64,000 nucleotides of DNA, from contig CALFWB010000039.1 of assembly GCA_937928795.1 (NCBI GenBank), positions 1 to 64,000 on the forward strand, read 5' to 3'. Each line of letters starts with the position of its first letter. Positions within the stretch are counted from its first letter, which is position 1. Source of the stretch: an uncultured Anaerolineales bacterium. GTDB taxonomy: Bacteria > Chloroflexota > Anaerolineae > Anaerolineales > UBA4823. Positions 21,756 to 36,179 of the stretch are shown in pieces. The position numbers were made by a program, and so were the translations under genes. A model generated the notes under the pieces. That model ran no database searches, was not told the DNA's origin, and saw only the letters and a program-made list of their open reading frames with translations.

Positions 21756-22652
21756 ATGGTAGCCAGTTACGTGACGCTTGATCCCAAATTGCTTAAAGAA
21801 CGAGCCGAGGCGGCAAAGGAACACCTGAACCACTGCGACCTATGCGGCTGGGAATGCGGTGTTAACCGTCTAGAGGGTAAACTTGGTGTCTGCAAAACGG
21901 GGGATGTCGCCTATCTCAGCAGCTTTGGGCCCCATCATGGAGAGGAAAATCCGCTGCGCGGCTGGCGTGGTTCTGGAACGATCTTCTTTGCCGGTTGCAA
22001 TTTACGCTGTCAATACTGCCAAAATTACGAGATCAGCCACCTTTACCAAGGCTATGCCGTGACCCCAACCCAATTAGCCGAAATCATGCTTCACTTACAA
22101 GCCATAGGCTGTCATAATATTAATCTGGTTTCTCCATCCCATGTGATTGTGCCCATCCTGCAAGCATTGGTTCTGGCGCAGGCAAACGGCCTTCATCTGC
22201 CATTGGTGTATAACACCGGGGGGTATGATTCCCTAAGTGCTCTGGGGCTCTTGGAAGGCATCATCGACATTTATATGCCAGACATGAAATATAGCAACGC
22301 TCATCTAGCCCAAAAATACTCTCGAATTCCAAATTACCCTACGATCAATCAACAAGCGGTCAAAGAAATGCACCGTCAAGTTGGAGACTTGGTCTTAGAT
22401 GAAAACGGAATTGCCCAACGTGGCTTGTTGATTCGGCACCTTGTCTTACCGAACCAAGTTGCAGGCAGCGAACAAATCCTTAGATTTATCGCTCAAGAGA
22501 TTTCACTCAACACCTACCTGAACATCATGGATCAATACCGACCGCTCTTTCAGGCTCACCGCTATCCGGAAATAAATCGGCGAATTACCTCTCAGGAATA
22601 TCAAGAGGTCATTGCTCTGGCGCGGTCTCTGGGGCTAAATCGCCTTGATTAA
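21756..22652 (+). CDS. Radical SAM protein, PflA-like (COG1313 type)
   Basis: A 298-residue protein with the radical SAM cluster motif CNLRCQYC (Cys81, Cys85, Cys88). Four more cysteines at positions 27, 30, 34 and 46 (CDLCGWEC...VC) could bind a second metal or stabilise the N-terminus. Sequence style matches proteins annotated as pyruvate formate-lyase activase-like, but no glycyl-radical enzyme is nearby, so the true target is unknown. It is the last of four tightly spaced genes; the proS leader follows. Confidence 0.85.
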   Translation: MVASYVTLDPKLLKERAEAAKEHLNHCDLCGWECGVNRLEGKLGVCKTGDVAYLSSFGPHHGEENPLRGWRGSGTIFFAGCNLRCQYCQNYEISHLYQGYAVTPTQLAEIMLHLQAIGCHNINLVSPSHVIVPILQALVLAQANGLHLPLVYNTGGYDSLSALGLLEGIIDIYMPDMKYSNAHLAQKYSRIPNYPTINQQAVKEMHRQVGDLVLDENGIAQRGLLIRHLVLPNQVAGSEQILRFIAQEISLNTYLNIMDQYRPLFQAHRYPEINRRITSQEYQEVIALARSLGLNRLD

Positions 22653-22719
22653 TCGCATTTTATCCTCGCAGAGGCTCTACACCGCCCGCTTTTGAAGGCA
22701 CTTCACGAGAATTTTTACC

Positions 22720-22747
22720 TTGACATCATTGAACAAAATGGTAAACT
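22720..22747 (+). promoter_or_regulatory. proS promoter
   Basis: TTGACA at 22720-22725 and TAAACT at 22742-22747 are 16 bp apart, and the -10 is preceded by TGG. Transcription should begin near 22754, at or one base before the ATG of the leader peptide, so that peptide may be translated from a leaderless mRNA. Confidence 0.75.
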
Positions 22748-22754
22748 AAAAACA

Positions 22755-22814
22755 ATGATACAGCCGAATTTCCCGAGTGAACTCTCCCCGTTCCCGCCTA
22801 CCCGAAAACCCTAA
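22755..22814 (+). CDS. Proline-rich leader peptide of proS
   Basis: A 19-codon frame, MIQPNFPSELSPFPPTRKP then TAA. Six of the nineteen codons are proline (four CCG, one CCT, one CCC). It sits exactly between the promoter and the prolyl-tRNA synthetase gene and is followed by mutually exclusive hairpins. Its role would be to measure charged tRNA-Pro: slow decoding at residues 12-15 would keep the ribosome on the 5' arm of the first hairpin. There is no Shine-Dalgarno, which fits the leaderless start suggested by the promoter position. Confidence 0.8.
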   Translation: MIQPNFPSELSPFPPTRKP

Positions 22815-22900
22815 CCTGGCTTTCGGCTTCTGAGAGTTCGCCGGCAAAAGTCTAGTAATCCCTGCCCTCTGGAGCGAAAGCCACAGAGGGCAATTTTTAT
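22779..22900 (+). promoter_or_regulatory. Transcription attenuator of proS
   Basis: Three alternative pairings are visible. The protector hairpin is GAACTCTC (22779-22786) with GAGAGTTC (22832-22839) plus CCGAAA (22802-22807) with TTTCGG (22821-22826). The antiterminator is CTTTCG (22820-22825) with CGAAAG (22875-22880), continued through GGAG to AGAG (22833-22836) with CTCT (22867-22870), with small bulges. The terminator is TGCCCTCTG (22863-22871) with CAGAGGGCA (22884-22892), followed by ATTTTTAT. A ribosome stalled on the proline codons would cover the protector 5' arms and favour the antiterminator; one that reaches the stop codon would favour the terminator. Confidence 0.8.
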
Positions 22901-22924
22901 CCATCTTATCATGAGGAGGACGCT

Positions 22925-24697
22925 GTGAGAGTTTCGCAATTATTCAATGTGACCCTACGAGAAGCCCCTGCAGAGGCAGAAGTTGCCAGCCACCAATTGC
23001 TTGTGCGAGCTGGATTTATTCGCCAATTAGCGGCCGGCATTTTCAGTTACCTGCCCTTAGGGAGGAGAACACTGACCAAAATCGAAAATATCATGCGCGA
23101 GGAAATGAATGCCATCGGCGGTCAAGAGATGACCATGCCGGTCGTCCACCCGGCTGACATATGGAAAGAGACCCAGCGCTGGTATCAAATCGGCACCGAA
23201 ATGGGGCGATTTAAGGATAAGAACAATCGCGACATGGTTTTAGCGATGACACATGAGGAAGTAGTTGCCGACATCGTGCGCAAGGATATCCGTTCCTACC
23301 GCCAACTACCCCGGTTAATTTACCATATCCAGACCAAATGGCGCGATGACCCCCGGCCGCGGGCCGGGCTCATACGGGTGCGGGAATTCACCATGAAGGA
23401 CAGCTACAGCCTCGATGCCGACTGGGAAGGGCTAGACAAACAGTATCGCGCTCATTATCAAGCCTATTTCAACATCTTTCATCGCTGCGGAATTCCGGTG
23501 ATTGCCGTCAAATCCGACGTCGGCATGATGGGCGGCAAGATGGCACACGAATATATGTATCTCACGCCCATTGGCGAAGACACTCTTGTCATCTGTGATA
23601 ATTGTGGCTACTCCGCCAATCGCCAAATCGCCTTCTTCAAGAAAACTCCTCCGCCTCCAGAGGAACCGCTACCCGCCGAAAAAGTGTATACCCCGGAAGC
23701 AAAGACCATTGAAGCCCTTGCCAACTACTTGCAAATCCCCAAACAAAAAACGGCCAAAGCGGTTTTCATGGTGGCGACATTACCCGATGATGGCGGGTAC
23801 AAGGACACCTTTATCTTCGCCATCGTGCGCGGCGATATGGAACTGAACGAGACCAAACTTGCCAACATCCTAAAAGCCAAAGAGCTGCGATCAGCGACCG
23901 AGGAAGAGATCATTGCCACCGGTGCAGTGCCGGGATACGCTTCCCCCGTTGGGCTAAAGGATGTCTTGGTGGTTGTGGACGACCTTATCCAACAATCGCC
24001 CAATTTGGTTGCAGGCGCAAATGAAGAGGGCTACCACCTAAAAAACGTCAACTATGGACGCGATTACAGCGCCAACATTGTCGCCGACATCACCGCTGCT
24101 CAAGATGGCGATGCTTGCATTCGCTGTGGCGCTCCCTTGCGCACCGCCCGCGGCGTTGAAGTTGGGAATATCTTCAAATTGGGTACGCGTTATTCCGATG
24201 CAATGGGATGTACCTTCCTTGACAAGGATGGCGTTGAAAAGCCGATTATCATGGGATCATACGGAATTGGCAGCGGGCGTCTGATGGCTTGCATTGCGGA
24301 GGAACACCACGATGACCAGGGATTAATTTGGCCAATCACCGTTGCCCCCTACGAAGTTGAAATTGTATCTCTTGGCGGTCACCAGAGTGAGAAAGTCCAA
24401 ACCGTTGCCGATCGTTTATACCAAGAATTCCTCGACCGAGGGATTGAAGTCCTCTATGACGACCGAGATGAAAGCCCAGGCGTAAAATTCATGGATGCAG
24501 ACTTAATCGGCATCCCGATTCGGCTTACGGTGAGCGAGCGCACGGTGCAACAAGATGCCGTTGAATTCAAGCGCCGCGACCAGAGTGAGAAACGCCTAGT
24601 GCAACTTTCCGAGGTCTACGCCACGGTCAAGCATGAGATTGAACTCCTTCATCAAGAGATCCGATCCAAAGTGATTGAGGTGCCATTCGAAGGATAG
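22925..24697 (+). CDS. proS: Proline-tRNA ligase (bacterial type)
   Basis: A 590-residue class II aminoacyl-tRNA synthetase that charges tRNA-Pro. It has motif 2 (WRDDPRPRAGLIRVREF), an inserted editing (INS) domain between about residues 225 and 390, motif 3 (GIGSGRLMACIAEE) and the C-terminal anticodon-binding domain (about 465-575). Start is GTG 22925 with GAGGAGG at 22912-22918. Expression is likely governed by the attenuator in its leader, not by a T-box, of which I see no sign. Confidence 0.97.
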   Translation: MRVSQLFNVTLREAPAEAEVASHQLLVRAGFIRQLAAGIFSYLPLGRRTLTKIENIMREEMNAIGGQEMTMPVVHPADIWKETQRWYQIGTEMGRFKDKNNRDMVLAMTHEEVVADIVRKDIRSYRQLPRLIYHIQTKWRDDPRPRAGLIRVREFTMKDSYSLDADWEGLDKQYRAHYQAYFNIFHRCGIPVIAVKSDVGMMGGKMAHEYMYLTPIGEDTLVICDNCGYSANRQIAFFKKTPPPPEEPLPAEKVYTPEAKTIEALANYLQIPKQKTAKAVFMVATLPDDGGYKDTFIFAIVRGDMELNETKLANILKAKELRSATEEEIIATGAVPGYASPVGLKDVLVVVDDLIQQSPNLVAGANEEGYHLKNVNYGRDYSANIVADITAAQDGDACIRCGAPLRTARGVEVGNIFKLGTRYSDAMGCTFLDKDGVEKPIIMGSYGIGSGRLMACIAEEHHDDQGLIWPITVAPYEVEIVSLGGHQSEKVQTVADRLYQEFLDRGIEVLYDDRDESPGVKFMDADLIGIPIRLTVSERTVQQDAVEFKRRDQSEKRLVQLSEVYATVKHEIELLHQEIRSKVIEVPFEG

Positions 24698-36090: not shown

Positions 36091-36165
36091 CGGGGCGTGG
36101 CGCAGCCCGGCTAGCGCGCTTGCATGGGGTGCAAGAGGTCCTGGGTTCAAATCCCAGCGCCCCGA
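36091..36165 (+). tRNA. tRNA-Pro (anticodon GGG)
   Basis: A 75-nt cloverleaf with acceptor CGGGGCG / CGCCCCG, D stem GCGC/GCGC, anticodon stem CTTGC/GCAAG with loop ATGGGGT, and T arm CTGGG-TTCAAAT-CCCAG. The discriminator is A and CCA is not encoded. The GGG anticodon reads CCC and CCU codons. Confidence 0.97.
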
Positions 36166-36179
36166 CTGCTCAAGTTCAC

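Follow-up and report, generated by a model that had tools for sequence, protein, structure and literature searches.

In front of proS, the gene for prolyl-tRNA synthetase, the DNA of an uncultured Anaerolineales bacterium carries a leader region that is very probably a ribosome-mediated transcription attenuator sensing charged tRNA-Pro. The region lies within the stretch of 64,000 nucleotides that was analysed (the window), and its elements are collected in Table 1. These include a promoter, a short proline-rich frame directly behind it, a protector hairpin, an antiterminator and an intrinsic terminator. An initial annotation, made from the letters of the window, had already read the region as a proline attenuator, and all the elements that it listed were found where it had placed them or within a few bases. 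Its reading is supported by the conservation of the proline-rich frame, by compensating changes in the stems, by the terminator and by the distance between the -10 element and the ATG.

Table 1. Elements of the proS leader region, in positions of the window.
Feature	Position	Strand	Sequence, evidence or remark
Promoter, -35	22720-22725	+	TTGACA; 10/12 consensus for -35 plus -10
Promoter, extended -10	22739-22747 (hexamer 22742-22747)	+	TGG-TAAACT; 16-nt spacer after -35
Putative leaderless leader-peptide ORF	22755-22814	+	MIQPNFPSELSPFPPTRKP and stop; ATG 7 nt after -10, without Shine-Dalgarno
Protector hairpin, whole	22773-22844	+	Fold; swap test; pair types
Protector outer helix	22777-22786/22832-22841 plus 22773-22775/22842-22844	+	Fold
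Control codons	22788-22799	+	CCG TTC CCG CCT (P-F-P-P); align with P-x-P-S/A/T of relatives
Protector inner helix	22802-22807/22821-22826 plus 22810-22811/22818-22819	+	Fold
Antiterminator 5' arm (segment 2)	22817-22830	+	TGGCTTTCGGCTTC; swap test, ribosome-state folding, pair types
Intrinsic terminator	22863-22900	+	9-bp stem 22863-22871/22884-22892, 12-nt loop, U tract 22893-22900
Antiterminator 3' arm (segment 3)	22871-22883	+	GGAGCGAAAGCCA; mostly terminator loop
Segment 2:segment 3 pairing bases, example			GGCUUUCG:CGAAAGCC
Shine-Dalgarno of proS	22914-22919	+	AGGAGG; sequence
proS, prolyl-tRNA synthetase	22925-24697	+	590 aa, GTG start; protein search; proposed regulated gene

The annotated frame of 19 codons with six prolines was recovered as such, and its proline content has a probability of about 2e-4 against a background of 5% proline. 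In folding of RNA 22755-22850, the protector appears as two stacked helices (-25.1 kcal/mol, z -2.5). When the RNA is masked through the end of the proline-rich region, leaving 22810-22883, segment 2 pairs with segment 3 (fold energy -23.3) to form an antiterminator of 13 pairs with one bulge; the presence of this element had been annotated correctly, but its arms are better placed here than at 22820-22836 and 22867-22880. The terminator proposed at 22863-22892 plus a U tract is borne out by folding: alone it reaches z -5.4, RNA from 22827 onward folds into it, and its stem is followed by ATTTTTAT. A simple terminator scanner gave no match at this place, as it accepts loops of at most 8 nt and this one has 12 nt. 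The region thus presented holds the alternative protector, antiterminator and terminator pairings with shared segments that characterise an attenuator. The mutual exclusion of the three pairings, as initially claimed, stands as far as the sharing of segments goes, but between antiterminator and terminator the competition for bases is incomplete: the antiterminator of the window takes the terminator loop plus only the top base pair of the stem, not the whole 5' arm. Exclusion between these two would therefore be topological and kinetic, and the secondary-structure programs used cannot score a loop-pseudoknot alternative. Taken by themselves, the elements of the window might partly be due to chance, a doubt that is removed by their conservation in 51 distinct leaders.

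These leaders were collected by locating proS through a protein search of 61 related genomes and a named collection, all of them environmental assemblies, and by reading the upstream regions; the 51 distinct leaders that were kept had been chosen partly by their proline content. By reading, the leader precedes 29 of the 31 proS genes in the family to which the window belongs and 5/11 in other families of the order; of the copies in the order that lack it, several sit close behind another gene. The case that the initial annotation had named as refuting, proS in place with neither a proline-rich frame nor compensating stem changes, was seen only in a minority of the order and in genomes outside the class. 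All 51 leaders carry a proline-rich frame and a terminator hairpin followed by a U-rich tail. P-x-P occurs in nearly all of them, and P-x-P-[S,A,P,T]-x-R-[K,N] is common to most of the peptides, while their other positions vary freely. The frame is maintained through synonymous changes, as all four proline codons are used at both conserved proline positions (CCT/CCC/CCA/CCG being 18/15/10/7 at the first and 31/3/5/11 at the second). Proline makes up 18.6% of the 51 leaders, a composition that is partly circular as evidence, since proline content entered the selection. Promoter position, RNA arms and spacing are free of this circularity, and an independent search pattern of promoter plus ATG that took no account of proline found the proS leader again in six out of eight genomes (G000, G003, G005, G016, G021 and G029).

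The promoter is arranged alike in most of the set: the -35 and -10 elements are 16-17 nt apart in most of the 51 relatives, 34 leaders have a -35 element with at least 5/6 matches, and in most of the 51 there are 6-10 nt between the end of the -10 hexamer and the leader ATG. Among the 51 leaders, none has a convincing Shine-Dalgarno sequence before this ATG, whereas the pheST leader of E. coli is Shine-Dalgarno-led. The initial suggestion that the ATG lies at or next to the transcription start agrees with this conserved spacing, which fits a leaderless frame and from which the start site is predicted.

Some leaders and upstream regions depart from the common picture. In L116 all stem sequences are replaced and their order is kept (GGCCCCGTTGT / ACAACGGGGCG / CGCCCCGTGTTGA / TCAACACGGGGCG); together with L111 and L028, it belongs to the leaders in which, as judged by eye and unscored, the stems are unrelated and the order is the same. 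The 9-mer GTCCCTAGC, encoding Val-Pro-Ser, is found in the distantly related leaders L013, L026, L028, L056, L068, L086, L112, L115 and L116, and is kept even where the stems are unrelated. Genome G021 contains a second complete leader (L043 / L280), behind which proS breaks off after ~65 codons and gives way to unrelated sequence and an assembly gap. Upstream of proS in L055 and L067, promoter and terminator are present and the usual leader is absent; both share a possible four-codon frame, TTG AAA CCC GTT, followed in L055 by a stop.

Covariation was assessed in the 36 alignable leaders by a swap test, in which cognate arms were compared with arms exchanged between species over 20,000 permutations. 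For the antiterminator, none of the 20,000 permutations was as good as the cognate arrangement, and for the protector 93 were. With one sequence per similarity cluster (n=27, 24 and 16, the last comprising sequences of <60% identity), the antiterminator again gave 0/20,000 in each set and the protector 9-12/20,000. Most antiterminator positions vary in pair type (after GGCUUU, for example, CG, CC or CA occurs together with its complement), and several positions show G-C, C-G, A-U and U-A pairs. Of the covariation that the initial annotation had proposed to look for in all three stems, compensating changes were thus found in protector and antiterminator, and for the terminator its presence throughout. 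Compared with dinucleotide shuffles, duplex energies are only modestly low (mean z of about -1.3 and -1.1) owing to the high C and G content of the leaders, and the swap test and the folding of ribosome states are the stronger evidence.

The position of segment 2 is tied to the proline codons. In 35 of the 36 aligned leaders, 22-24 nt separate its start from the second conserved proline codon, while the distance between segment 2 and the stop codon ranges over many values, from +6 to -28. Ribosome states were represented by folding with transcription halted just past segment 3, a stalled ribosome being represented by a mask of 13 nt that begins at the second proline codon. The expected number of segment 2:segment 3 pairs is 2.5 in free RNA, 10.4 when the ribosome is stalled at proline and 1.0 when it has reached the stop codon; the stalled value exceeds the at-stop value in 36/36 leaders and the free value in 35/36. 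In all 36 leaders, a ribosome at the control codons is predicted to free segment 2 and one at the stop codon to cover it. Shuffling segment 2 lowers the stalled value to 1.8, and shuffling the frame upstream of it raises the free value to 7.7, so it is the protector that holds segment 2. In about six leaders (L011, L014, L025, L040, L043 and L086), the free state is predicted to favour the antiterminator already.

From these features a mechanism can be proposed, in which transcription would start at or next to the leader ATG, as the spacing suggests, and the ribosome would load on the leaderless end. With ample Pro-tRNA, it would reach the stop codon and cover segment 2, the terminator would form and transcription would end before proS. 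If Pro-tRNA were short, the ribosome would stall at the P-x-P codons and open the protector hairpin; segment 2 would then be free to pair with segment 3 once this is transcribed, no terminator would form and proS would be made. Without any translation, the protector would keep segment 2 and the terminator would form.

Leaders matched to an amino acid also precede other genes. In the same genomes, the proS leaders are richest in Pro, those of hisG in His (21% of their composition) and those of lysW in Arg (17.5%). Leaders of hisG with runs of 3-6 His codons occur in 28 of 30 Anaerolineae relatives (L164-L193), that of the window genome being MANLHTHAHHHHTSRLAGWLWRVG (L173). Arginine-rich leaders of lysW, such as MMLPFAKPAARRPFSPSRGRMGGFALATAR, occur in at least 12 relatives (L194-L216, with L200 as the locus of the window genome). 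LysW serves as carrier protein in an arginine/lysine pathway, which makes arginine a plausible control amino acid for its gene. In both sets the ATG mostly follows just after the -10 element and a terminator is present. For proB, the gene with which proline synthesis begins, a proline leader was sought as well, and the upstream regions read contain none. Within the window's genus (G000-G005), no proB (glutamate 5-kinase) scored above the curated cut-off, so that these bacteria may obtain proline by a different route or take it up.

No match to the T-box family (RF00230) was obtained in 22650-22960 even at E 10, nor did any other Rfam family match the leader of the window; the window also contains a glmS ribozyme (RF00234; 14754-14967, +) and a tRNA-Pro with a GGG anticodon (36091-36166, +), about 11 kb downstream of proS. 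The window genome has T-boxes elsewhere, for example before pheS (T-box at G000:C55:57602-57880, gene at C55:58043-58966). Among 40 further Chloroflexota proS upstream regions, mostly from other classes, no proline leader was seen, and four from outside the window's class (L284, L285, L319 and L322) have a T-box; these matches (E 1e-11 to 5e-18) do not reach the gathering score, yet they contain the GGTGGTACCGCG motif. The leader at proS hence occupies the place where some other Chloroflexota have a T-box. It is likely that the Anaerolineae possess class-wide leaderless, amino-acid-matched attenuators (Pro at proS, His at hisG, Arg at the lysW operon) and T-boxes at other genes such as pheS, the proS leader lying in the position of the T-box of other Chloroflexota.

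The conservation of the peptide beyond its prolines raises the question of nascent-peptide arrest, in which the P-x-P-S/A-x-R peptide itself would stall the ribosome, on limiting EF-P or a bound antibiotic for example, and the RNA switch would report this stall instead of charged tRNA-Pro. Such an explanation would account for the S/A at the next position, for the R two further on and for the recurrence of GTCCCTAGC in distant leaders, and it is nevertheless improbable. Consecutive prolines are present in few leaders, P-x-P is not known as a strong EF-P arrest motif, the clade of the window carries P-F-P-P-T-R-K instead, and the parallel His and Arg leaders point to the sensing of codons. The conservation of R/K is partly explained because their codons make up the arm of the protector to which segment 2 is paired; for the conserved features as a whole (the Ser that follows the second Pro, Arg and GTCCCTAGC), pairing is only part of the explanation.

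Two further explanations do without a regulatory role for translation of the frame. The rich conserved structure, together with the T-box found at proS in other Chloroflexota, could suggest a structured RNA with a terminator that is constitutive or senses a tRNA or a protein, the short frame being untranslated. This is very unlikely, given that proS shows no Rfam match, that the position of the ATG after the -10 element is kept, that proline codons are conserved with synonymous changes, and that segment 2 has a fixed distance to these codons and a variable one to the stop. Slighter still is the chance that the frame, which has its own promoter, is an unrelated small protein gene followed by an ordinary terminator that exerts no control over proS: its N-terminal sequence is not conserved, its conserved part lies within mutually exclusive RNA helices, and it accompanies proS and does not occur before proB. 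Attenuation by charged tRNA-Pro remains the preferred reading.

Attenuators of this kind were known before pheST in E. coli and before trpS and leuS in Streptomyces (PMC1262725). They share with the proS leader the synthetase's own amino-acid codons in the leader peptide, an antiterminator and a terminator, and differ in amino acid, gene and phylum. In Salmonella mgtP/mgtL, proline codons in a short ORF before the gene increase transcription at low levels of charged tRNA-Pro (PMC3641672), but the genes are those of Mg2+ transporters rather than of a synthetase, and mgtP has a Shine-Dalgarno sequence and three consecutive proline codons. Like the proS leader, as judged from its predicted start, the leaderless trpL attenuator of Sinorhizobium meliloti has its ORF at the 5' end of the transcript (PMC7298713), although it serves tryptophan biosynthesis in Alphaproteobacteria. 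In mycobacteria, leaderless ORFs that contain control codons are also described in front of amino-acid genes; these are poly-Cys ORFs, and the citing article calls the mechanism translation attenuation (Canestrari 2020, as cited in PMC13236596). The T-box resembles the proS leader in sensing tRNA charging, as proposed here, but binds the tRNA directly and without a translated ORF. Switching between T-box and leader peptide has been reported for the control of hisS (PMC2965389), and leaderless genes for Chloroflexi (PMC3160421).

In the open-licence literature, no prior description was found of a proline leader for proS or of leader peptides in Chloroflexi/Anaerolineae. The kind of attenuator is hence already known, and its specificity, gene, probable leaderless form and lineage are together new as far as could be seen. 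If the proposed reading holds, proline and prolyl-tRNA synthetase would join the known specificities of leader-peptide attenuation, which would extend to a phylum for which no report was found. Two unrelated sensors of tRNA charging, the T-box and the leader peptide, would serve the same gene within one phylum, and a leaderless control frame whose start codon falls on the transcription start would offer a simple test bed for the coupling of 70S initiation on leaderless RNA to the termination of transcription.
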